Shown: positions 9,644 to 39,326 of the stretch, in pieces | How positions within the stretch are numbered: position 1 is the first letter of the stretch | Layout: each line of letters begins with the position of its first letter | Source: Natrinema hispanicum | GTDB lineage: Archaea > Halobacteriota > Halobacteria > Halobacteriales > Natrialbaceae | Reading direction: 5' to 3' | NCBI RefSeq assembly: GCF_900111485.1 | Contig: NZ_FOIC01000023.1 | Span: 1 to 40,049 of the forward strand | DNA: 40,049 nt | Position numbers and translations under genes: made by a program | The notes under the pieces: model-generated | Database searches by the model: none | What the model saw: the letters and a program-made list of their open reading frames with translations, nothing else | Told to the model about the DNA's origin: nothing

Positions 9644-10038
9644 CAACGATCATCATCATCAAATCGGTTGAACATCATGCGTCCGTTCGAGAGATCCTCG
9701 GATCGGTCGTAGATGACGGTGAACGAGTCTACTTTCTCAGACTGCCGACTGTCCGGTGTCTCGGACCGCTCATCCAGGAGGTCAATCCGATGATCAACTA
9801 CGGTGTCGACTACACGATCACTCCGCTTCCCGAGGGATACGACGTGTCCACGCTCGTCGAGTTCGCGACCGAATTCGATGCGAATAGAATCTGCATCGGC
9901 ATCTCCGACCGAACGCTAACAGGCAAGGCGCGGATCGACGATCTGACGCAATCGATTTTACTCCACGACGACATTTCGGGCGACTTCGTCGTCGGCGAAC
10001 ACGCGATCATTCTGGAGGAGCTCGAGTATGGAGACTAA
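9640..10038 (+). CDS. Divergent UspA-like protein
   Basis: A 132-residue protein whose ATG overlaps the stop of the HTH-10 regulator by 4 nt. A longer frame starting at 9325 runs out of frame inside the regulator and is not the true start. The C-terminal half carries the universal-stress-protein pattern: EFATEFDANRICIGISDRTLTGKARIDDLTQSILL resembles the usual A-D-x-I-V-I-G ... G-K ... S-x-x-x-L-L segment. The N-terminal strand MTTIIIIKSVEHHASVREIL lacks the usual signature, so nucleotide binding is uncertain. Coupling to the regulator suggests a joint sensory role. A different alpha/beta fold is possible. Confidence 0.6.
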   Translation: MTTIIIIKSVEHHASVREILGSVVDDGERVYFLRLPTVRCLGPLIQEVNPMINYGVDYTITPLPEGYDVSTLVEFATEFDANRICIGISDRTLTGKARIDDLTQSILLHDDISGDFVVGEHAIILEELEYGD

Positions 10039-10113
10039 CCGTACGAGACAGTTGCGAGCCCGAACCGGCCTACGAACACCAGTTTACCGAATCCAAGCAC
10101 CACTCAGTAAGCT

Positions 10114-12621
10114 ATGAGTCCATCCGATCGAGCCGACGACCGACGCACCGAGGCACGACGCGAAAAAGAAGCGGTCCGCGAGAAGCGACGACGAGGGGAG
10201 GGGATCGGCTGGAACGGCCGGACACTCCGCGAGCAGTTGGCCGAACTCGAGGACAAAACGGAAGCGACGGATCACTACTGTGGGCTGTCGGAGCTGGAAT
10301 TGAAAAACGAGGATCCGATTCGATACGAGCAGTTGTACGCGCGCCTCCGTGGTGATCTCGTGACAGCACGCGAGACGTCGAAAGAGGTGTCCGCGACGCC
10401 GATCGTCGAGCAGGAGGGTGAGCTGTGCTACGGCCTCTTTACTCCTGAAGGAGACTCGATCGCCGTCTCGACGGGAATCATCGTCCACGTCCACACGATG
10501 AGTGAGGCGATCAAGTTCATGATCAACCACGACTACGAGGAGAGCCCTGGTATCGAACCGGGCGACATCTTCGTCAACAACGATCCCCACGTTGGCGACG
10601 TGCATCCGTGTGATCTTATGACGATCATTCCCATCTTCCATGAGGGAGAACTCATCGCCTGGGTTGGTGGGGTAAACCACGTCATCGACACTGGTGCGAT
10701 CGGCCCGGGGAGTATGAACGTCTCGCAGGCCTCTCGCTTTGGCGATGGTGCCTACTACACGGCCCGCAAGATCGGCGAAAACTTCGACCTCTACAACTCC
10801 TGGAAGAAGGAATACCCTGCCAAGACCCGGACACCGGATTTCCTCAAGCTCGATGAGCGGACGCGGATGACCGGCTGTCTGATGATCCGCCATTCGGTCA
10901 AGGAGATGATAGCCGAACACGGGGTCGAGACGTTCAAGCAACTTTCTCGTGAAGCCGTTGAGGACGGTCGTCGAGGGTTTCGGAGCCGGATCAAGAAAAC
11001 TATGCTTCCCGGAACCTATCGCGGTGCTTCGTTCGTCGACGCCCTCTACGAGGGCCAGGAAAACGTCACTCGCGAGTATGCCCAAGAAAATCACATCATG
11101 CACGCGCCTTCGGAACTCCACATCCGAGAAGACGGAACGTTTCAGGTCTCCTTCGAGGGCGCGAACAAGTGGGGTTGGCACCCGTTTAACTGTACGCCGG
11201 CTGCGATACAGGGCGGCATCTGGGTAATGCTCACCCAGACGGTGATTCCAAACGAACTGGTTAATGACGGTGCCTACTACGCCTGTGATTTCCACCTGCC
11301 GGTTGGCTCGTGGGCCAACACCCAGAACACGGAAACAGCCCACGCCTACGCCTGGCACTTCCTCGTCTCAGCGTGGGCACCGCTCTGGCAGCATCTCTCA
11401 CGAGGGTACTTCGCCCGCGGCTTCTGGGAGGAGATCAACGCCGGGAACGCCAACACGTCGAACTGGCTGCAGGGCGGCGGTATCGACCAGTTCGACAAAC
11501 TCCACGCCGTCAACTCCTTCGAGTCGGCCTGTGAGGGCGTCGGTGCCCGCTACGTTGAGGACGGTGAACCACATGCCTCGGCGGTCTGGAACCCGGAAGG
11601 TGATATGGGTGATGCCGAAGCGTGGGAAACAGTCGAACCACTTCCGTTCCTTGGACGGGCAGTCAAGCCGAATACGGGCGGTGTAGGCCGCCGGGCAGGC
11701 GGTGCCGGCTTCGAGTCCATGCGAACGGTTAAAGACGTCAGCAGATGGCTGCTCTACGAGATGGGCAACGGGTACATGACCAGCGATGGCGGTCTCTTCG
11801 GTGGCTATCCTGCTGCATCGGGGTATATCCTCAACGCTAGAAATACCGATCTCGAGGAACGCTTCGAGAACCGCGATGACTACCCGCAACACGATCTCGA
11901 CCCCGAAAGTGGTGACTTCGAATCCAAGATCGATGGCGACGTTACTCGCCGCCCGGAGGGAATCAGCACCCCCAAGGAGTTCGACGACTACGACATGTAC
12001 CTGAACTACCTCCGCGGTGGCTCGGGGCTTGGTGATCCACTCGAGCGCGATCCCGAGGATGTCCTCGCAGACATCCACGATGGGTACGTGCTGCCCCGGC
12101 ATGCGGAAGACGCCTACGGCGTCATCGTCGAGAAAGTCGACGACGAAGCAAGGCACAACTCCGCTGTCCAGGGCGAATGGGAGCTTGACGCGGACGCGAC
12201 CGAACAGCTCCGCGAAGAGCGGATGCGAGAACGCGCCGAGACAGCCCAGCCGGTCTCCGAATGGTATGCGGAAGAACGTGAGCGCATTCGTAACGGGGAC
12301 GACCTCATCGACGACGTCAAGAAGACCTACGAGAGCAGCATGCGGATGAGTACGCAGTTCGCCACCTTCTTCCGCGATTTCTGGGAGCTACCGGACGAGT
12401 TCGGGTTCGACCTCAGCAAGAAGGCACAGAAATCACTCGATAACCGGTTCGACTCCGGACTTCGTCCGATGTGGGACAGCCCCACACGGGGACACAAAAC
12501 GTGGCTCGACGTTGGTGACGAACCGTACGTCCCATACACGTGGACCGACCGCTCTATTCGGGACCTCTCTGGTCCGGAATCGACGTTTGGCGATCGGGAA
12601 CAGGCGGCCGATGATGACTAA
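10114..12621 (+). CDS. Acetone-carboxylase-type alpha subunit (HyuB/AcxB-like), stand-alone copy 2
   Basis: An 835-residue paralog of the alpha subunit at 3622-6144. It is collinear along its length and nearly identical through the middle (for example SNWLQGGGIDQFDKLHAV and RTVKDVSRWLLYEMGNG in both). It differs mainly in the N-terminal 60 residues and the C-terminal 80. The metal region is conserved (DPHVGDVHPCD, then GGVNH; His164, Asp167, His189), so it is probably active. No beta or gamma gene accompanies it; the nearest partners are the upstream operon's. Many third codon positions differ from copy 1, with more T and A here, so it is not a recent tandem copy. It may be an alternative subunit that changes substrate range, or a copy gained from a related haloarchaeon. 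Confidence 0.88.
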   Translation: MSPSDRADDRRTEARREKEAVREKRRRGEGIGWNGRTLREQLAELEDKTEATDHYCGLSELELKNEDPIRYEQLYARLRGDLVTARETSKEVSATPIVEQEGELCYGLFTPEGDSIAVSTGIIVHVHTMSEAIKFMINHDYEESPGIEPGDIFVNNDPHVGDVHPCDLMTIIPIFHEGELIAWVGGVNHVIDTGAIGPGSMNVSQASRFGDGAYYTARKIGENFDLYNSWKKEYPAKTRTPDFLKLDERTRMTGCLMIRHSVKEMIAEHGVETFKQLSREAVEDGRRGFRSRIKKTMLPGTYRGASFVDALYEGQENVTREYAQENHIMHAPSELHIREDGTFQVSFEGANKWGWHPFNCTPAAIQGGIWVMLTQTVIPNELVNDGAYYACDFHLPVGSWANTQNTETAHAYAWHFLVSAWAPLWQHLSRGYFARGFWEEINAGNANTSNWLQGGGIDQFDKLHAVNSFESACEGVGARYVEDGEPHASAVWNPEGDMGDAEAWETVEPLPFLGRAVKPNTGGVGRRAGGAGFESMRTVKDVSRWLLYEMGNGYMTSDGGLFGGYPAASGYILNARNTDLEERFENRDDYPQHDLDPESGDFESKIDGDVTRRPEGISTPKEFDDYDMYLNYLRGGSGLGDPLERDPEDVLADIHDGYVLPRHAEDAYGVIVEKVDDEARHNSAVQGEWELDADATEQLREERMRERAETAQPVSEWYAEERERIRNGDDLIDDVKKTYESSMRMSTQFATFFRDFWELPDEFGFDLSKKAQKSLDNRFDSGLRPMWDSPTRGHKTWLDVGDEPYVPYTWTDRSIRDLSGPESTFGDREQAADDD

Positions 12622-29335: not shown

Positions 29336-31447
29336 CTACGCCGGATTGCGTTGTGCTGTGGTCACTTCAAATCGTGCGCCCCCGTCCTCGCTTTCGGTCA
29401 CGCCGACTGTCCAGCCATGAGCTTCGGCGATTCCCTTGACAATGGCGAGCCCGAAGCCCGTTCCCTCACTCGTCGTCGAGTAGCCCTGATCGAATATCTC
29501 CTCACGTATCGCGGGTGGAATGCCCGGCCCGTCGTCTGCGACGTAAAATCCATCACGGCTCTCGAGTCGGCCAACGCGGATCGTCACATCGTCGCCGCCG
29601 TGGGTCAGCGCATTCGAGAGGAGATTCTCGATTAGCTGCCGTAGCCGAGCCTCGTCACCTTCGAGGCGATAGTCCCCGAGCGCGATATCGATGGTCGCAC
29701 GGTCGTTCGGAAGCGTCTCACAGACCGACTCGAGTAGCGTCTGCAAGACGATCGGCTGGGTCTCGTCGACCTGCTGGCCGTTGCGTGCGAGGGTTAGCAG
29801 ATCGCCGATGAGCGCGTTCATCCGCTTGTGAGCAGCCTTGATGCGATCGAAGTCCTCCGCTGCGCCGCTCTCACGGCCGAGTTCGAGTGCAGCCTGGGCG
29901 ACTGTCAGCGGGTTTCGGAGGTCGTGACTGACAACGGAGGCGAACTCCTCGAGACGGGCATTGGTCCGTTGAAGTTCACGCTCGCGTTCTTTGCGCTCAG
30001 TAATATCCTGAAACGCGCCGCGCGCACCGATGAGGGTGCCATCGTCGTCGTACCACGGCGCTCCGAGCGTTCGAACCCAGCGTCTCTCATCGGCAGCCGT
30101 GATGATCCGTAACTCTAGATCGTAGCCGTCACCTGTTTTCCGCAGCCGTTCGAACGCGTCCGTAATCGTCGCTCTATCCTGTGGATGATAGAAGTCGATT
30201 CCGTCTTCAACCGCCGGCTCGTACTCGGTTGGCAGTTCGTGGATGCGATAGACTTCGTCCGTCCATCGCATCGTCTCCGTACGGAAGTCGACCTCCCAGC
30301 CGCCGATATCCGCGGCGCTCTGGATCTGCCGAAGGAACTCCCGCTTTTGCTCGAGTTCACGGGCACGTTGTTTGTGTTTGGTAATGTTTCGCCCCTCGGT
30401 GACGAGTAGGACGACATTGTCCCGTTCGTCCGTGATCGGTCGAATCGAGAAGTCGATGATTGCCGTTTCATCAGCACCTTGTACTTCGACGTCGTATCGG
30501 ACGAATTCGCCGTTCGCAGCCGACGTGACGGCGTCTTTCAGCTGCATCCGAGTGTGCTCGTCTCGCTGCCACCAATACGTGTCCCAGAACAGTTCGCCGA
30601 TGACCTCCTCGCGTTTGAGACCGCCGAACTCGAGCGCGGAGTCGTTAGCTTCGAGCAATGTTCCGTCGGTGTCTAACAACCCGATATACTGGTACGTCTG
30701 GTTGAAGATGGCGTCGTACCGGCGCTCTCGATCTTTCTGTGCGGTGATATTGCGCGTCGCTCCGACGAGTTTCTCGACGGTGCCATCGACAATGACGGGA
30801 GCAATCCGCGTCTCCCAGTAGGGTCCCTCGTTGGGGACCGAAACGAGCTCTTCGTATTCGATTGGTTCACGCCGGGCAACGCACTCGCGGTACTTCTCGA
30901 GGATGGAATTTCCCTCTTCAAAACCGAAGACATCACGTAACCCCCGCCCGCTGAGTTCGTCGCTTGTAAGTCCCGTGTGGCGTTCATACGCGGGATTAAC
31001 GCGTTCTAACTGAAACTTGTCCGTCTCCTCGTCGAGATCGATGAGGAAAAGCGCATCCTGCGTGTTCTCGAACAGTGTTTCTGCGAGTTCGACTCGTTCT
31101 TGACGTGCCTTGCGCTCGGTAATTTCGCGGGAAAGTATCGTGAGACCATCCGCGTTAACGTAAATGGACACCTCGATCCACGAGTCGAGTGGATCGCCGA
31201 ATCGTGTCTCGAACGAGCGTGCTTCTTGCGTTTGAATCGCTTCCCGACACTGTCCCTCGAATTTGGACCCCCGAAACGATGGAACGACATCCCACACGAC
31301 TTCGCCTTCGATAGCCGCTGCTGGGACGCCAGTCCACTCATCCATCCGGTCGTTCCAATACGTGACTCGACACTCGGTATCTACTGCACAGCATGCGTCC
31401 GAGATACGCTCGGTCAATCGTTCATATGTTGATTGGCTATTGCTCAT
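29336..31447 (-). CDS. Four-PAS sensor histidine kinase
   Basis: A 703-residue kinase with no membrane segment, hence probably cytoplasmic. Four PAS units lie at about 5-112, 118-238, 242-357 and 370-486, with PAC-like ends such as LSREITERKAR, VGATRNITAQKDR and RGAFQDITERKER. Then come a dimerisation/phosphoacceptor helix with His508 in VVSHDLRNPLTVAQAALELG and an ATPase domain with the N box ENLLSNALTHGG, G1 VADDGPGIP and G2 EGTGFGLAIVKGIAEAHGW. A lone Trp-rich PAS (FWDTYWWQRDEHTR) could bind a flavin or haem, but no diagnostic residue is visible. A 77-residue frame and a response-regulator gene lie directly upstream on the same strand and are the likely partners. Confidence 0.88.
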   Translation of the reverse strand: MSNSQSTYERLTERISDACCAVDTECRVTYWNDRMDEWTGVPAAAIEGEVVWDVVPSFRGSKFEGQCREAIQTQEARSFETRFGDPLDSWIEVSIYVNADGLTILSREITERKARQERVELAETLFENTQDALFLIDLDEETDKFQLERVNPAYERHTGLTSDELSGRGLRDVFGFEEGNSILEKYRECVARREPIEYEELVSVPNEGPYWETRIAPVIVDGTVEKLVGATRNITAQKDRERRYDAIFNQTYQYIGLLDTDGTLLEANDSALEFGGLKREEVIGELFWDTYWWQRDEHTRMQLKDAVTSAANGEFVRYDVEVQGADETAIIDFSIRPITDERDNVVLLVTEGRNITKHKQRARELEQKREFLRQIQSAADIGGWEVDFRTETMRWTDEVYRIHELPTEYEPAVEDGIDFYHPQDRATITDAFERLRKTGDGYDLELRIITAADERRWVRTLGAPWYDDDGTLIGARGAFQDITERKERERELQRTNARLEEFASVVSHDLRNPLTVAQAALELGRESGAAEDFDRIKAAHKRMNALIGDLLTLARNGQQVDETQPIVLQTLLESVCETLPNDRATIDIALGDYRLEGDEARLRQLIENLLSNALTHGGDDVTIRVGRLESRDGFYVADDGPGIPPAIREEIFDQGYSTTSEGTGFGLAIVKGIAEAHGWTVGVTESEDGGARFEVTTAQRNPA

Positions 31448-31777: not shown

Positions 31778-32575
31778 TTAGTCTCCAGTGACTGCCTTGC
31801 GGATCCGATCAGCCAGTTCGTCGTACTGTTCGGTATCTGGCCCCTTCTGGACGTAATCGGTTACGCCAGTCTCGATCGCCTGACTGGCCACCGATTCACT
31901 GCCTTTGGCAGTGAAGACGATGAACGGCATCGTCGCGTCCTCCTCGCGGACGGCTTTTAAAAAGTCGATCCCGCTAATCGCTGGCATCTGATAGTCGCTC
32001 ACGATACAGTCGAACGATTCCTCCTCGAGTCTGGTCACCGCTTCGAGGGAACTCGCTCCGGTGGTAACGGTCATATCGTCGTTCTCGCGCTCGAGGTAGG
32101 CACCGATCGTCTCGGGAAGTCCCGGTTCGTCGTCGACGAGTAACACCTGAATTGTCTCGCGCTCGTCAGGCTGACTGTCCGGTTCGTGCACACTCTCGAA
32201 CTGGATCTGATGGCGAACCGCGAGGTCGAGCCACTCGCCAATGTTACCGTGAAGGCTCGTAGACTCGACGATCTGTTGCTCCGGATCGTACGTGATCAGT
32301 CCAGTGTCCACGAGTTTAGGAAAATGGCTGTGATGTAACGACGTGCGCAGGTGCTCGTGATCGACCCCTCGAGACTCGTCTCCATTGACCTCTGCGATCA
32401 CGTCGGCGAGTTCGTCGACCGTCGCAGCTCTATGCTGACGAAGGTGGAACAGAACAGTTCGCCGACTGGCGTCGGAGAGTACGTGAAATAATTCGTCATT
32501 CGAGAAATCGGGGCGGCCGCGGCCGTCCGGAGTACCTTCGTCTACCATACTTGGTAGAGATAACCACACAATCAT
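31778..32575 (-). CDS. Response regulator with N-terminal winged helix and C-terminal receiver
   Basis: A 265-residue protein with reversed domain order. Residues about 22-120 are a halobacterial winged helix (DELFHVLSDASRRTVLFHLR, then LHHSHFPKLVDTGLITYDPE). Residues 142-265 are a receiver domain with every key residue: Asp148-Asp149 in VLLVDDEPG, phospho-acceptor Asp194 in CIVSDYQMP, Thr222 in IVFTAKG, and Lys244 in YVQKGPD. The order suggests phosphorylation controls the HTH from behind. A TATA-like run (about 32600-32608, minus strand) is spaced for a leaderless start at 32575; the ATG at 32548 (MVDEGTPDG) is the alternative. It is probably the partner of the kinase downstream. Confidence 0.85.
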   Translation of the reverse strand: MIVWLSLPSMVDEGTPDGRGRPDFSNDELFHVLSDASRRTVLFHLRQHRAATVDELADVIAEVNGDESRGVDHEHLRTSLHHSHFPKLVDTGLITYDPEQQIVESTSLHGNIGEWLDLAVRHQIQFESVHEPDSQPDERETIQVLLVDDEPGLPETIGAYLERENDDMTVTTGASSLEAVTRLEEESFDCIVSDYQMPAISGIDFLKAVREEDATMPFIVFTAKGSESVASQAIETGVTDYVQKGPDTEQYDELADRIRKAVTGD

Positions 32576-32795: not shown

Positions 32796-33488
32796 ATGCG
32801 CCGTCGTCAATTTATTGTCGCCACCGGTCTCGGAGCGGTCACCGCTCTGGGTGGATGCCTCGGTAGCAAGTCACCACCACCACGGAAGTCGAGCGTCGTC
32901 TCCGACTTCGAGGTGAGCGACGGCACACTCGTCGTTGATCTTGCCGACAATAAGTGGGTCATGTCCCGTTACGACGGGTCGCAACAGTCTCCCGCCACGG
33001 TAAGCCCCGTTGGTATCGCCAGCGCGAAAGGCAGTAGTGGCGGTGGCGGTGGCCGAGGCGCAACCGGACGCGGCACCGGCGGATACACCTCCGCGCCACA
33101 TACGAGCCACGGACACGCGTGGTACCACGGTGGCGACTACGCCGACGACTGGTACGAAGATCACGAGGAGGAAGTGACGCAGTACCCTGTTACTGTCGCC
33201 GCACTCGGGGTCGCCTATCTCGGTAGCACCGATCAGATGCAAGACGAGGCACCAGACGCAGGCACAGTCTCCTGGGACGAGACGTTCCAGAATCCGAGCG
33301 GGACCGTCATGTACGACATCACCAACCGTCCGGAATTCTCTCAGGCGGGCTGGTATCGCGTCGGCGCGAACATCGTCGGTGGCGATTCGAATCACGACTT
33401 CCGCTGGGAGTGTTACGATCTCGAGGTCAGCGACGGCGCTACGGGCTTTCGGATCGACGAACAGTGGAAGGTGTCGCCACGCATCTAA
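32796..33488 (+). CDS. Tat lipoprotein of unknown function, first gene of the SpeE/DUF2617 cluster
   Basis: A 230-residue exported protein with a Tat lipoprotein signal: MRRRQFIVATGLGAVTALGGC, lipid Cys at 21. After a beta-rich start (VSDGTLVVDLADNKWVMSRY) comes a Gly-rich stretch with His and Tyr (GGGGGRGATGRGTGGY, then TSHGHAWYHGGDYADDWYED). A second beta-rich half (SGTVMYDI, WYRVGANIVGG, FRWECYDLEVSDG) looks like an Ig-like or extracellular beta-sandwich domain. I recognise no family. The gene leads a forward cluster, with a 70-nt gap to the spermidine-synthase-like gene. A purine-rich GAGAGG lies about 15-20 nt before the ATG. Confidence 0.7.
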   Translation: MRRRQFIVATGLGAVTALGGCLGSKSPPPRKSSVVSDFEVSDGTLVVDLADNKWVMSRYDGSQQSPATVSPVGIASAKGSSGGGGGRGATGRGTGGYTSAPHTSHGHAWYHGGDYADDWYEDHEEEVTQYPVTVAALGVAYLGSTDQMQDEAPDAGTVSWDETFQNPSGTVMYDITNRPEFSQAGWYRVGANIVGGDSNHDFRWECYDLEVSDGATGFRIDEQWKVSPRI

Positions 33489-33558
33489 GCTGTGTGTCTC
33501 CCCTGCCCTCGACGTGCCCGCTCGAGGCAAATCTGAGCAAACGGTGAGCCGCTTTCCC

Positions 33559-35346
33559 ATGTCCGATACACGAACTGCGACGGCTGCCCTCCTCGTGCTG
33601 ACGTTCGTCGTCTCGTTCTGTAGTTTCGTCTATGAGTTCGTCTACTCCGAACTGCTAACGGTGATGTACGGCGGGACCGTGACGCAGTACGTCATCACCG
33701 TCGGGCTGTACTTCTTCAGCCTCGGCGTCGGCGCTGCGCTCTCAGACGACCTGAATCCCGAGGACTACGGCGGGAACTTCTTTCGAACGGAAGTGCTTCT
33801 CGCTGCCGTCGCTCCCGCGGGCTTTCTGCTCATTGTCGGCCTCAACAGCGTTCGGGTTCCACGAGCCGTTCCACCGGAACTGCTCTGGACAGTCGCACGG
33901 CTGCCCGTCGTCGTCGTCGGCTTTCTCTCGGGATTCGAACTCCCGCTTTTGACCCACATGGTCGACGACCGTGACGACGACGGCACGACAACACCCGCGT
34001 GGATCCATCGCCTCGGCGACCGGCTTCACGACTGGACCGTTACCTGCCTCGGCGTCTTCTGGAACGTCGAGCGCAAGGAAGGGCGACGGAGCGGACTGTC
34101 GGTCGTACTGGCGATGGACTACGTTGGCGGCCTCTGTGGGGCGGTCGTGTACGCCAGACTGCTGTATCCAAGACTGGGACTCATCCCGACGATTTTCGTG
34201 CTCGCGCTGCTCAACGCCGTCGCAGCACTCGCCTTCGTCGGCTACTTCAGCGGCTGGTCGTGGCCGTCGTCCGACAACGATGATCGGAGACTGTTCGGTG
34301 ACTCGACGCCGACACCGCTCGTCGGTCGCGTCCCGAAGACACTGCTCGTCGTCTGTCTGTTGCTGACCGCATCGTACGCGGGCGTCGTGGCTAACCACGA
34401 GACGGCAGACGAGCGACTGTCGGAACTCTACCTCGAGCAGCAAATCGAGAACGAGTATCCCCCGGGCGCGATGAGCGTCGAGATCACCGACCAGGAGACG
34501 ACACGATACCAGCACGTCATCCGTTACGAGCGCACCTGGACCGGTGCCGGGCCGAACCCGCATTTCACTGGGCGCTCCGAACAGTGTCTCCGGCTCGGGT
34601 CGGCAGTCCAACTGTGCGATAGCTGGGCCGATAGCTATCACAACGGCCTCGTCGACGTGCCGATGTCGCTGGTCGACCACGGCCCCGAGACGAAGGTGCT
34701 CGTCGTCGGCGGCGGCGACTGGATCGCCATCGACCATCTCCGACAGTACAACGTCACCGTCGACCACGTCGACCTCGACGCCCAGTTCATGAACATGACG
34801 AAGCACGACCCGTTCTTCCGTCACTGGCACGACGACGCCTACGAGTACGACCGCCTGCAGACGACTGCCACCGACGGCTACCGCTATCTCCAGCAGACGA
34901 ACGAAACGTACGATCTCGTTCTCCTCGACGTCCCAGGTGCGACCGACGACGACCTGCTCACGCTCTATTCGAAGGAGTTCTACCGCTCCGTCCGCCAGCA
35001 TCTCACGGACGACGGCATGATGGTGACGTGGGCGTACTCGGCAGACCGCTATCCCGAACATCACAAAGCGTTCGTGAACACGGTCGGTGCCGCCGGATTC
35101 ACCCGACAACTGCCCTACTGGGCGTGGGAGGACATCGACAGCGACGGCGAGACCGAACGGGTCGAGCGATTCTACGCCTTCGCACCCGGCGGTCGACAGC
35201 CGCTATCCGTCGCCGATGGGACCGCGTACGTCCAGCAGTACCGTGACCGCTATCACGACCGTCAGTGGCACCGTGTCCCCCGCTACCGTGGTGTACGGGT
35301 GAACTCCATTTTCCATCCGAACTACGATGTCCTCGTCGATACCTGA
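33559..35346 (+). CDS. Membrane-anchored spermidine-synthase-like protein
   Basis: A 595-residue protein from the ATG at 33559 (MSDTRTATAALLVL); the open frame back to 33379 overlaps the lipoprotein gene and lacks protein character. The first 275 residues hold about seven membrane helices, for example LTFVVSFCSFVYEFVYSELL, FLLIVGLNSV and VVCLLLTASYAGVV. The C-terminal half is a Rossmann methyltransferase-like SpeE domain: VLVVGGGDW (about 380-388), VDHVDLDAQFMNM, DGYRYLQQTNETYDLVLLDVPG. Classic aminopropyltransferases have GGGDG and an Asp in their polyamine-binding loop; here Gly becomes Trp and the loop reads DVPGATDDD, so the amine acceptor may differ. Membrane SpeE fusions occur in bacterial clusters with DUF2617-type proteins. 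The next gene starts 2 nt after the stop. Confidence 0.82.
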   Translation: MSDTRTATAALLVLTFVVSFCSFVYEFVYSELLTVMYGGTVTQYVITVGLYFFSLGVGAALSDDLNPEDYGGNFFRTEVLLAAVAPAGFLLIVGLNSVRVPRAVPPELLWTVARLPVVVVGFLSGFELPLLTHMVDDRDDDGTTTPAWIHRLGDRLHDWTVTCLGVFWNVERKEGRRSGLSVVLAMDYVGGLCGAVVYARLLYPRLGLIPTIFVLALLNAVAALAFVGYFSGWSWPSSDNDDRRLFGDSTPTPLVGRVPKTLLVVCLLLTASYAGVVANHETADERLSELYLEQQIENEYPPGAMSVEITDQETTRYQHVIRYERTWTGAGPNPHFTGRSEQCLRLGSAVQLCDSWADSYHNGLVDVPMSLVDHGPETKVLVVGGGDWIAIDHLRQYNVTVDHVDLDAQFMNMTKHDPFFRHWHDDAYEYDRLQTTATDGYRYLQQTNETYDLVLLDVPGATDDDLLTLYSKEFYRSVRQHLTDDGMMVTWAYSADRYPEHHKAFVNTVGAAGFTRQLPYWAWEDIDSDGETERVERFYAFAPGGRQPLSVADGTAYVQQYRDRYHDRQWHRVPRYRGVRVNSIFHPNYDVLVDT

Positions 35347-35348
35347 CC

Positions 35349-35927
35349 ATGCCCGAAGACATCCCTCACTCCACCGACGACAGGCCCACAAAACTGTACT
35401 TCGGCTATGCCGATACGACGCCGGAGCTCGAGACACTCGACGTGAAGACCGTCCACCCCGACACGCTGCTCGAGTCGCCGGCGGTGTTTACTGTCATCGG
35501 CGAGTCACACTACGTCGGGCTGCCCACGCTCGGCTTTCACGAACTCTGTTCCTGTCGGCCGGTGTCGCTGGAAACTGCCTACGAGACACCACTGTCAACC
35601 GACGTCGAACGCACGTTTCGCTTCGACGGGGACACCCTTCTCGCGACGACGACTGTCTCGGGTCGACCGATCGACGCGTTCCCCGGCCCCGAGGCGGCAA
35701 CGGTTGCATTCCGGTTTGGTCCTAACGCGTGGACCACGATCTGCGTCGACGAGGCAGGCTACGAAACGTATCACACCTATCCGGAGTACGGACTGGCGCT
35801 TTATACCGAGACGAACCTGCGCCCGCATGCGTCGCGTGCCGGGCGCTCGAGCGACGAACTGACTGACGATACAGTCAACGAGACGACTGCCACCACACCA
35901 CAACAGACCAGCGAACACACACGATGA
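35349..35927 (+). CDS. DUF2617-family protein
   Basis: A 192-residue protein starting 2 nt after the SpeE-like gene. It shows the DUF2617 pattern: TVIGESHYVGLPTLGFHELCSC in the first half, AFPGPEAATVAFRFGPNAW in the middle and YETYHTYPEYGLALYTETN near the end. The last 35 residues are polar and probably disordered. The function of DUF2617 is unknown; I recall it beside SpeE-like, DUF350 and DUF4178 genes in bacteria. Its stop overlaps the next start in an ATGA (35924-35927), so three genes here are translationally chained. An upstream in-frame start at 35265 lies inside the SpeE-like gene and is rejected. Confidence 0.8.
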   Translation: MPEDIPHSTDDRPTKLYFGYADTTPELETLDVKTVHPDTLLESPAVFTVIGESHYVGLPTLGFHELCSCRPVSLETAYETPLSTDVERTFRFDGDTLLATTTVSGRPIDAFPGPEAATVAFRFGPNAWTTICVDEAGYETYHTYPEYGLALYTETNLRPHASRAGRSSDELTDDTVNETTATTPQQTSEHTR

Positions 35928-36880
35928 CAGGTAATTCTACGCAGACGACCTACAACGGTGATGTCACGATCAACGGCTCGGAACGCCCACCGATCGAACT
36001 ACACGACCCTGCCGACGTGTTCGTCACAACAGACGGCGTCGGCGGCGACTTCGAGGTTCGCAACGCAGAGTACGTATTCACACACCAGTCCGTCGACAGC
36101 GGCGTCAGCGTCGCCGATGCGGAGACGACGATCCGTGGCGAGCTCGAGGACGGCTACGTCGAACGGACCGATGGCGACATCCGCATTACCGATACGGAAG
36201 ACGTGTTCGTCGCCACCGACGCTGTCAACGGCGAGTTTTCCGCACCCGGCGCGGAGAACGTCTATACGGACGACATTTCGGCAACAGCGACGCCTGACGA
36301 ATACGACGTCTCGACCGTCGGCTGGCAGCAGTCCGGGCACGCGAGCGATCCATCGGCCGGCGTCTACGCGGTTGGAATGGATCACGAGATCGAACTCGAG
36401 GGGGTGCGGACGGACATCGAACTCTACCTCGTCGGCCACGGCCACCAGGTGTCCGTCGACGGTCGCAGCGCCGACGTTTCCGTTCACTTTCTCGGGTACG
36501 ACAATACCGTCCACGTCGGCCCACATCTCGCGACCAACGTCGTCTCCGATACTGGCTTCGACAACGAAATCGACGCCGAACCGTATCCCGCAGCCGACCT
36601 CATCGAGATGTCCCGCAAGGAGGCATACGCGAACGCGGGATTCGGCCGCCGGAAAGTGACCTTTCAGGTCCCAGCAGACGACGAAAACTGGTGTTCGAAC
36701 TGCGGACGGGATGCCGATGCGATTATCGAACGCCACCAGATGGAGGCGTTCTTCCTCTTTCGTATCCCTGTGTGGACCTACGAGCAAAGTACCAACCCCG
36801 CACAGGAGTGTGAACACTGCTCGCCAAACGTCGTTCACGCCGAACTCTTACCCGAAGAACGGCGGCGAGTTTTCGAGTGA
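35924..36880 (+). CDS. Beta-repeat protein with C-terminal zinc ribbon
   Basis: A 318-residue protein coupled to the DUF2617 gene by an ATGA overlap. Residues 1-215 are short beta-strand repeats: VFVTTDGVGGDFEVRNAEYVF recurs as VFVATDAVNGEFSAPGAENVY, followed by DUF3060-like turns (AVGMDHEIELEGVRTDIELYL, FLGYDNTVHVG) suggesting a beta-helix or toast-rack-like stack. The last 75 residues contain WCSNCGRDADA and QECEHCSPN, two CxxC knuckles about 44 residues apart, separated by a hydrophobic segment (MEAFFLFRIPVWTY). No signal peptide is seen, so it is probably cytoplasmic. It may dock to the membrane proteins of the cluster. No family name is certain. Confidence 0.75.
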   Translation: MTGNSTQTTYNGDVTINGSERPPIELHDPADVFVTTDGVGGDFEVRNAEYVFTHQSVDSGVSVADAETTIRGELEDGYVERTDGDIRITDTEDVFVATDAVNGEFSAPGAENVYTDDISATATPDEYDVSTVGWQQSGHASDPSAGVYAVGMDHEIELEGVRTDIELYLVGHGHQVSVDGRSADVSVHFLGYDNTVHVGPHLATNVVSDTGFDNEIDAEPYPAADLIEMSRKEAYANAGFGRRKVTFQVPADDENWCSNCGRDADAIIERHQMEAFFLFRIPVWTYEQSTNPAQECEHCSPNVVHAELLPEERRRVFE

Positions 36881-36989
36881 CGGTCGTATCCACCGAAACT
36901 ATATAGCACACTGAAATCTATCGTGAGTATGACCGTCATATCGAGAGCTACATCGCGTCAATCGGGGTGTCACGAGGTGGTGCAATAAC
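36881..36989 (+). promoter_or_regulatory. Possible internal promoter of the channel gene
   Basis: The 109-nt gap carries a TATA-like ACTATATAG (about 36899-36907), predicting a start near 36930 and a leader of some 60 nt. The channel gene may thus be expressed with the cluster and also independently. Confidence 0.35.
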
Positions 36990-39326
36990 ATGTCGAAAAA
37001 CGAGCCGAAACCGGCCCTGATGTCATCGTCGGCCTGTCGGTACACGTTCGACCCATCGACGCAGACGGACGCCGAACTCCAGACGACGTGGGAGTGTCCA
37101 CACGAGGCACATCCCGAGAGCGAATACTGCGTGTTCCACATGAGTCGGGATGAACGCGTGGCACACGACGTCACCGCCGACGACATCGTCGATGTCCTCC
37201 AAACGAACCTCGAGTCGCCGGACACCCGCGTCAACGAGTACGTGGGTGCGGACCTGCCACACCTCTCGCTTACGTATCAGGACATCAACGGCTCGACGAA
37301 CCACGTTCTCAATTTCCAGCATGCTGACATCGACGGGCTGGACCTCACCCACGGCCGCCTCGATCAAGGACTCATCCTTCGGGAGGCGACCATCGGGCAG
37401 CTCAAGTTCGAAGACTCGGTCGTTACGGGCGTCGTCGAGGCGAGCGACCTGACCGTCCAGGGAACGGTGACGACCGACGAAGCGACGTTCGAACAGGACG
37501 TGCGACTCGACGGGGCCGTCTTCCACGGTGACGTGGACTGTGATGAGACGACGTTTCGAGGCGATACCACGTTCGAAGCGGCGACGTTCCACGGCGTTGC
37601 TCACTTCCGAAACGTCGAAACCAGTGGCAGTAGTCACGTCCTCGAGGATCACATCTCCTTTGCCGACGCGACGTTTCGCGACGACGCGAGTTTCCGACAG
37701 GCGACGTTCGAGTACGTCACGTTCGAAGGCGCACAGTTCACTGCCGGTTCCGACTTCGAACACACTGATTTCAGTGGTAACGCCCGGTTCGACGGCGCGA
37801 CGTTCCAGCAGATGGCTGACTTCGACGAAGCGCGGTTCGACGACGACGCGAGCTTCGAGGACGTACGCTTCATGCAACTCGCCGAGTTTCGCGGCGTCGA
37901 ATTCAACGGCGGCAGTCGAACCACGAACGACGATGTGACCTTCGAGGGGGCAGTCTTCGAGAGTGAGGCCGACTACAAACTCGCTCACTTCCGATTCGCG
38001 GATTTCAAAGACGCGACGTTCAAAGGACAGGTCAACTTCGATCGGGCAACGTTTACCGCCCGTGCGGACTGCCACCGTGTGCAGGTCGCCGACGAACTCG
38101 ACCTCGCCTGTGCGACCTTCGAAGACGAAGTCGAGTTCAGCGAGAGCAGTTTCGGCGACGACGTCATTGCCGTCGAGACGGAATTTCAGGGCGACGCGAC
38201 GTTCGACGAGGTGACGTTCGACGCTCGAGCGCGATTCGACGAAGCCCGCTTCAACGGAGATGCGAGTTTCTCTGCGGCGACGTTCCACGGGCTCGCCGAG
38301 TTTCGCGGAGCGGTGTTCGAAGGTGAAGCGCGACATCTCGAGGAGAACGCATCGTTTAGGGAGGCCGTCTTCCGAAAAGACGCCGAGTTCGAGGCGGCGA
38401 ACTTCACGAACGTCTCGTTCTGGGACGCGACGTTCCACGGGCGGTGTGACTTCCGGCACGCAATCATCCACGAGTCGGCACAGTTCCGGCTGCTCGATGG
38501 TGAGCGCGATACGTACGTCGATTTCACCGATGCGACGATCAATGGCGGAACGATCTCGCAGGTCGGCGGCGACGCGATTCCGTACGACCTCACGCGGGCA
38601 ACGATCGGCGATATTCAGCTCGAGGGACAAGGGAACGAACACGAACTGCTCGACCACTTCCGGTTTTGTCTGACCGAGTTCGACCACTTCGACTTCAGCA
38701 CTCATCACGCGTATCTCGAGCGCAACGACTGGACGATCCACGATTTCGTCGGCAACAACGCGACCGGCCAGTTTGCTGTCGAGATGAACAACGAAATCAT
38801 CGAGGAAACGTATCGCAAAGCTCAGGACAGCGCCGATGCGGTCGGCGATACGCCTGCAAGCAGGGAGTTCGAGTTCAAACGCTACTACTACAACCGCAAG
38901 ACCAACCTCGACATCATCCGCAGCGAATACTCGCTGAATGCGTTGGGACGCGTCAAAAAGAGCGCAAGCGTCATTCTCAATATGTTCATGCAGGTGACCT
39001 GCGGGTACGGTAATCGACTCCCACGGATTGCTGCGTTCACCTTCCTGTTGCCCGCACTATTCGGGCTGTTATATGCCCTCGGCGGTCCGTTCCTGACTCA
39101 GGCAGGAAGCGTCTTCAACGCGAGTGGGGTCGACAAGACGCCACCGGACGTCCTCTTCGACAGCGTCTACTACAGCTACATCAGCTTCAGTACGGTCGGT
39201 TACGGTGACATCAACCCGCTCGGCCCCGCAGCACGGGTGCTCGCCGCGAGTCAGGGGATGTTGAACGGGTTGTTCTTCACCCTCCTTACGTTCACGCTAT
39301 TCAAGCGCGTGCTCGGTGGGAGTTAA
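36990..39326 (+). CDS. Pentapeptide-repeat protein fused to a two-helix K+-channel pore
   Basis: A 778-residue fusion. The N-terminus has a Cys/His cluster (SACRYTFDP, then WECPHEAHPESEYCVFHMS) like a small zinc finger. Residues about 95-540 are pentapeptide repeats of the F type (ATFRGDTTFEAATF, ARFDDDASFEDVRF), expected to fold as a right-handed square beta-helix of some 20 coils. A helical linker (EETYRKAQDSADAVGD to YYYNRKTNLDIIRSEYSL) leads to a pore module: IAAFTFLLPALFGLLYALGG, the filter SFSTVGYGDINPLG (TVGYGD at about 735-740), and LNGLFFTLLTFTLFKRVL. This is a 2-TM K+-selective pore, so four chains would form a channel gated by the repeat domain. Ligand unknown. The stop is at 39324. 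Confidence 0.87.
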   Translation: MSKNEPKPALMSSSACRYTFDPSTQTDAELQTTWECPHEAHPESEYCVFHMSRDERVAHDVTADDIVDVLQTNLESPDTRVNEYVGADLPHLSLTYQDINGSTNHVLNFQHADIDGLDLTHGRLDQGLILREATIGQLKFEDSVVTGVVEASDLTVQGTVTTDEATFEQDVRLDGAVFHGDVDCDETTFRGDTTFEAATFHGVAHFRNVETSGSSHVLEDHISFADATFRDDASFRQATFEYVTFEGAQFTAGSDFEHTDFSGNARFDGATFQQMADFDEARFDDDASFEDVRFMQLAEFRGVEFNGGSRTTNDDVTFEGAVFESEADYKLAHFRFADFKDATFKGQVNFDRATFTARADCHRVQVADELDLACATFEDEVEFSESSFGDDVIAVETEFQGDATFDEVTFDARARFDEARFNGDASFSAATFHGLAEFRGAVFEGEARHLEENASFREAVFRKDAEFEAANFTNVSFWDATFHGRCDFRHAIIHESAQFRLLDGERDTYVDFTDATINGGTISQVGGDAIPYDLTRATIGDIQLEGQGNEHELLDHFRFCLTEFDHFDFSTHHAYLERNDWTIHDFVGNNATGQFAVEMNNEIIEETYRKAQDSADAVGDTPASREFEFKRYYYNRKTNLDIIRSEYSLNALGRVKKSASVILNMFMQVTCGYGNRLPRIAAFTFLLPALFGLLYALGGPFLTQAGSVFNASGVDKTPPDVLFDSVYYSYISFSTVGYGDINPLGPAARVLAASQGMLNGLFFTLLTFTLFKRVLGGS

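Follow-up and report, generated by a model that had tools for sequence, protein, structure and literature searches.

A five-gene haloarchaeal module that pairs a membrane SpeE-like enzyme with DUF2617, a distant relative of AdoMet decarboxylases

The DNA analyzed here, referred to as the window, is a 40,049-nucleotide stretch of Natrinema hispanicum (contig NZ_FOIC01000023.1), and its subject is a row of five genes that encode a lipoprotein, a membrane protein resembling the aminopropyltransferase SpeE, a DUF2617 protein, a beta-rich zinc-ribbon protein and a pentapeptide-repeat protein resembling a K+ channel. The DUF2617 protein is a distant single-chain relative of S-adenosylmethionine (AdoMet) decarboxylases (AdoMetDCs), a homology that is well supported, and the five genes form a discrete module in haloarchaea. 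Our findings suggest that DUF2617 probably makes decarboxylated AdoMet for the SpeE-like enzyme, whose acceptor side would be remodelled and whose product would be linked to the other three proteins.

Relationship of DUF2617 to AdoMet decarboxylases

The protein passed the gathering threshold of DUF2617 (PF10936) narrowly, at 22.5 vs 22.3 bits, and the similarity recurred in 26 of 26 relatives scanned. An earlier note on this DNA, made from the sequence alone, had assigned the family correctly and treated it as a partner of unknown function; the name stands, but the AdoMetDC-like nature of the protein was overlooked. Similarly, Ravi et al. (2024) describe DUF2617 only as a predicted beta-sandwich enzyme (PMC11237479), and no AdoMetDC assignment was found in the open-access literature consulted.

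When a profile of 26 haloarchaeal DUF2617 proteins was compared with the PDB, only AdoMetDCs were returned up to E 10, with weak values (E 0.29-1.3), and the alignment paired FxPxAxT...HTYPE with the FxPxGxS...HTWPE of SpeD, the AdoMetDC family PF02675, without gaps. With hhalign, the 26-sequence set matched SpeD at P 8.8e-6; in a larger set the C-terminal half matched at P 1.4e-7 with a score of 46.7, and 300 column shuffles reached 21.0 at most. The register of the N-terminal half places S53-H54 on the Ser-His of SpeD (ESH) and C69 on its Cys, and controls with reversed SpeD and two other module families gave no match.

The AlphaFold (AF2) model of DUF2617 has a mean predicted local distance difference test (pLDDT) score of 87, exceeding 90 in the core. 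VIA-align, a re-alignment of the matches listed by Foldseek, filled ranks 1 to 9 with AdoMetDCs or their prozyme paralogue (Z 7.7 to 5.9), the first being human AdoMetDC, with Z 7.7 over 130 residues that span both halves. Rank 10 is human spermine synthase (3c6k residues 5-120, Z 5.5), and unrelated proteins follow from Z 4.3 downward. A scan guided by a motif and covering 84,980 species genomes recovered haloarchaeal DUF2617 and eight non-haloarchaeal loci, all eight of which score as SpeD; the motif itself favours SpeD, and the scan is used as a supporting line only.

The counterparts of the pyruvoyl Ser, the Cys, the processing Ser/Thr and the His (S53, C69, T129 and H142; Table 1) are conserved. 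Among the readable haloarchaeal proteins (79 sequences from two overlapping collections, and hence fewer distinct genomes), S53, H54, E65, C69, F123, A127, T129, T140, H142, Y144, P145 and E146 are invariant, and GxSH, E, C (14/15), F, A, T and T-x-H-x-Y-P are broadly kept in 15 actinobacterial members. In the human enzyme, Cys82 and Glu247 are likewise functional residues. Human Ser68 is the pyruvoyl residue, with Ser229 and His243 acting in processing, and Thermotoga maritima has Ser63 and Ser55 (PMC3975893); Phe7 and Phe223 of AdoMetDC stack on the rings of inhibitors (PMC5377238). Further points of resemblance to AdoMetDC are the adjacent SpeE-like gene and, as in eukaryotes, the presence of two halves per chain.

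Several observations weigh against DUF2617 being a working AdoMetDC. The protein lies far under detection by Pfam AdoMet_dc, one relative reaching E 0.058, and because it stays below the PF02675 gathering threshold it is classed only as a distant relative. Foldseek with the model returned no significant match, and all VIA-align Z scores are below 8, a range that can mean shared arrangement only. The hhalign score of the N-terminal half is weak (20.4, exceeded by 1 of 300 shuffles), and the actinobacterial DUF2617 profile reaches only P 0.047 with SpeD. The residue preceding S53 is variable (Ser, Glu, Asn or Asp), and in T. maritima a Glu at this position helps processing (PMC3975893). Actinobacteria do not conserve E146, and the counterpart of C69 is missing from the one remaining copy of the 15. 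DUF2617 also differs from known AdoMetDCs in the loss of the C-half Ser and in a helix-poor model. In Haloferax volcanii, moreover, spermidine was not detectable and deletion of the SpeE homologue HVO_B0357 gave no phenotype (PMC5178350).

Integrity and distribution of the module

The five-gene row claimed by the earlier note is present, with all five open reading frames (ORFs) in place (Table 1). The SpeE-like and DUF2617 genes are 2 nucleotides apart, and the latter overlaps the beta/zinc gene by 4 nucleotides (ATGA).

Table 1. Module genes and candidate active-site features of DUF2617, in window positions
Feature	Position	Strand	Remarks
Tat/lipobox lipoprotein gene	32796-33488	+	ORF; motif RR...LGGC; Gly-rich middle; invariant PPR and W/D motifs
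SpeE-like gene	33559-35346	+	Seven-helix N-terminal domain, then aminopropyltransferase domain
DUF2617 gene	35349-35927	+	Candidate single-chain AdoMet-decarboxylase-like pyruvoyl enzyme
S53 codon	35505-35507	+	Candidate source of the pyruvoyl group; aligned to S63 of T. maritima and S68 of the human enzyme; GxSH motif (GASH in bacteria)
C69 codon	35553-35555	+	Candidate proton donor; aligns with the cysteine of SpeD TCG
F123-G-P-N-A-W-T129	35715-35735	+	Counterpart of SpeD FxPxGxS
H142-T-Y-P-E146	35772-35786	+	Counterpart of SpeD HTWPE; candidate processing His
Beta/zinc protein gene	35924-36880	+	Beta-solenoid-like; C-terminal four-Cys zinc ribbon C257/C260/C296/C299
Pentapeptide-repeat K+ channel-like gene	36990-39326	+	C-terminal pore domain, filter STVGYGD

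Among 242 haloarchaeal genomes, the SpeE-like and beta proteins (thresholds E<=1e-30 and E<=1e-5, respectively) occur in exactly the same 35, while DUF2617 and the lipoprotein occur in those 35 (the lipoprotein in 35 of 35 SpeE-bearing genomes) and in a few others as weak or partial matches. Channel relatives are more widespread, being present in 62 genomes. With few exceptions, the module genes of the 34 regions examined lie within about 10 kb of one another, in varying order and orientation, and in two genomes (G113 and G211) the channel gene sits on a separate contig. Relatives occur in Haloferax, Haloarcula, Halorussus, Natrinema, Natrialba, Halorientalis and Haloquadratum, among other genera, and several copies are plasmid-borne. 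The co-conservation on which the earlier proposal of one functional module depended is confirmed, and the proposal is supported. No neighbour family beyond the five was found in at least 4 genus groups.

Upstream of the module in the window, and divergent from it, two minus-strand genes encode a sensor histidine kinase of PAS type (29336-31447) and a protein resembling response regulators (31778-32575); no neighbour of the kinase or regulator type recurs beside the module in other haloarchaeal genomes. Just 3' of the channel gene, the start of an ORF cut by the contig end (39771-40049) presumably belongs to an IS630-type transposase, which it resembles.

The lipoprotein has no Pfam or PDB match. 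A homologue with 39% identity (G230, contig C19, 78300-78938) occurs in a genome with no detectable SpeE, DUF2617 or beta protein and is perhaps what is left of a decayed module; another genome carries a second lipoprotein-like copy that is broken and contains an in-frame TAG (G155, contig C7, 46602-48009). For the beta protein, Pfam gave weak Zn_ribbon_15 and DUF3060 matches only, and Foldseek with its model found no significant match. Beta-solenoid-like matches from VIA-align (antifreeze beta-helix, Z 8.4; bactofilin, 4.3) are limited to residues 121-222, and no family is therefore claimed; the alignment of this protein leaves out one sequence. Short forms of about 200 residues that lack the N-terminal half and keep the zinc ribbon were observed at four loci (L052 11348-11956, L062 7811-8407, L063 8158-8754 and L064 11016-11612). 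The channel protein matches Pentapeptide_3 (6.8e-63) and Ion_trans_2 (5.3e-11), and its STVGYGD contains the TVGYG filter of K+ channels. G090, a haloarchaeal genome that lacks the module, has a gene for a channel-like protein with pentapeptide repeats (L082, 7912-9765, plus strand) in convergent orientation to a true SpeD gene (9737-10237, minus strand), which is a second polyamine/channel pairing.

The kinship with bacterial operons that the earlier note described is supported. Those operons join a seven-transmembrane (7TM) SpeE, DUF350, DUF4178 and a lipoprotein, with a DUF4247-DUF2617 variant, and an envelope-stress and polyamine link has been proposed for them (PMC11237479). The haloarchaeal module shares with them the 7TM SpeE, the lipoprotein, a beta-rich protein and DUF2617, and a K+ channel occurs in one related bacterial group. 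Unlike them, it includes a channel with pentapeptide repeats and the beta-solenoid/zinc protein, and has no conserved DUF350, DUF4178 or PspA; as the note had stated for DUF350 and DUF4178, neither is found in the five proteins or among recurrent neighbours.

The SpeE-like enzyme and the source of its donor

The SpeE-like protein matches Pfam Spermine_synth (5e-18), has seven hydrophobic segments before its SpeE domain and finds its closest PDB matches in 3anx and 1uir (spermidine synthase; polyamine aminopropyltransferase). It resembles 7TM SpeE (PRK03612), although its score is well below the PRK03612 cut-off. D387 of the GGGD donor motif and D457 are invariant in the family and Y360 is conserved; by alignment, D457 and Y360 correspond to human Asp173 and Tyr79, whose roles in the aminopropyltransferase have been described (PMC12812037). 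The second Asp of the catalytic loop is replaced by G460, and GGGD is followed by W388. The altered site pointed out in the earlier note (GGGDW, DVPG) proves to be family-wide: all 37 homologues in the alignment carry GGGD[WY] and D[VIL]PG, in contrast to the GGGDG (in one case GAGDG) and D[LF]PDP of three bacterial 7TM SpeE proteins. The second Asp of DxxDP and the putrescine site are missing in 37 of 37, and the protein is not classed as a spermidine synthase. Since the residues that match the catalytic Asp and Tyr are kept and the putrescine-side residues are changed, the aligned sequences suggest a retained catalytic core with an altered acceptor site. These changes are in part already published, as GGGD(W/Y) in HVO_B0357 (PMC6267482) and as the lack of conserved putrescine-binding residues in the haloarchaeal SpeE homologue (PMC5178350). 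HVO_B0357 is likewise a 7TM SpeE homologue from a species with DUF2617, but the available text of both studies treats it as a lone SpeE homologue and does not discuss partners.

Halophiles have been reported to lack AdoMetDC (PMC5178350), which leaves the SpeE-like aminopropyltransferase without a known donor. Of 242 haloarchaea, 2 have PF02675, neither of them among the 35 module genomes, and no match occurs in the genome that hosts the DUF2617 protein studied here; H. volcanii also encodes a DUF2617 protein, as a search control showed. An AdoMetDC-like DUF2617 gives the module a plausible source of donor. For the aminopropylated or methylated product proposed by the earlier note, this favours aminopropyl over methyl transfer. 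The missing AdoMetDC had been considered as an argument against aminopropyl transfer and was dropped once DUF2617 was found to be AdoMetDC-like; a methyltransferase-only reading is weakened by the same finding and is retained as a rival.

In bacteria, DUF2617 tends to stand in for SpeD. At 10 of 10 actinobacterial DUF2617 loci (11-12 kb each), a 7TM SpeE-like ORF is nearby and SpeD is absent; the active site of this partner is canonical in 9 of 9 readable cases, that of L212 having been missed by the search pattern. Plasmid-borne 7TM SpeE operons of the proteobacteria Alteromonas, Novosphingobium and Ensifer have SpeD instead, and Gemmatirosa has a SpeD-like ORF near its 7TM SpeE; the Tritonibacter stretch showed neither SpeD nor DUF2617. 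In one actinobacterial order (91 genomes), DUF2617 occurs in 19, SpeD in 20 and both in 1, against an expectation of about 4 (one-sided Fisher P 0.04, relatedness ignored). That one genome rules out strict exclusion and leaves a tendency. Two further architectures were observed: an ORF fusing SpeD and SpeE domains in Smaragdicoccus (L162, 6806-8140), and, in Herpetosiphon (L164, 1769-4276; L160, 1772-4285), an ORF whose SpeE domain is joined to a membrane segment and to a GRG/Tyr-rich part reminiscent of the lipoprotein of haloarchaea.

Proposed mechanism, alternatives and significance

In the mechanism we favour, DUF2617 would be a eukaryotic-AdoMetDC-like single chain, with the self-cleaving Ser and the Cys in its N-terminal half and FxPxAxT and HTYPE in its C-terminal half. 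It would cleave itself before S53 and decarboxylate AdoMet, and the product would pass to the adjacent 7TM SpeE-like enzyme for aminopropylation of an acceptor other than putrescine, possibly agmatine or a membrane-proximal molecule. Agmatine is a candidate because it is a main polyamine of H. volcanii (PMC5178350) and is accepted by several SpeE enzymes (PMC11107197). The lipoprotein, the beta-solenoid/zinc protein and the K+ channel may act as sensors or as the output of the module, the stress concerned probably being osmotic or at the envelope. The earlier note conjectured that the product could gate the channel or repair the envelope. More tentatively, and with considerable doubt, DUF2617 may be the AdoMetDC of haloarchaea and many actinobacteria, a eukaryote-like single chain that feeds a membrane aminopropyltransferase whose new product regulates the channel.

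It is unlikely that DUF2617 is instead a pyruvoyl decarboxylase of AdoMetDC fold that acts on arginine or a different amine precursor and provides the acceptor, not the donor. SpeD relatives are known to switch substrate, as in those archaeal arginine decarboxylases that are AdoMetDC paralogues (Prunetti et al., PMC5178350), and haloarchaeal DUF2617 is strongly diverged; however, a distinct arginine decarboxylase is present in H. volcanii, and deleting it causes agmatine auxotrophy (PMC5178350), the module genomes hold no other AdoMetDC to serve SpeE, and the counterparts of the adenine-stacking Phe (F123) and the HTWPE Glu (E146) are kept in haloarchaea.

At least as doubtful is a non-catalytic role, in which DUF2617 would be a prozyme-like or AdoMet-binding regulator of AdoMetDC fold and the SpeE-like enzyme would transfer methyl or aminocarboxypropyl groups directly from AdoMet. 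The altered SpeE site (G460, W/Y388) in every homologue, the reported lack of spermidine in H. volcanii, the variable residue before S53 and the catalytically dead AdoMetDC paralogue of trypanosomes (PMC5201418) are consistent with it. A dead protein, however, would not need S53, C69, T129 and H142, which do not vary in haloarchaea and hardly vary in bacteria, and the canonical sites of the readable actinobacterial partners would call for decarboxylated AdoMet. A virus-defence or membrane-depolarising system, whose product opens the K+ channel upon infection, is highly improbable: the patchy (35/242), often plasmid-borne distribution, the shuffled gene order and a membrane channel as possible effector fit it, but apart from a weak mad2 match of the SpeE domain no defence family was matched, no gene family is conserved beside the module, and the bacterial counterparts sit in envelope-stress contexts (PMC11237479).

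The reported lack of AdoMetDC and spermidine had left the role of haloarchaeal SpeE-like genes open (PMC5178350), and an AdoMetDC-like neighbour of the SpeE-like gene makes the question directly testable in H. volcanii. If the proposed mechanism is true, a conserved actinobacterial gene of unknown role would gain a function, and aminopropylation would be tied to membrane stress and K+ channels.

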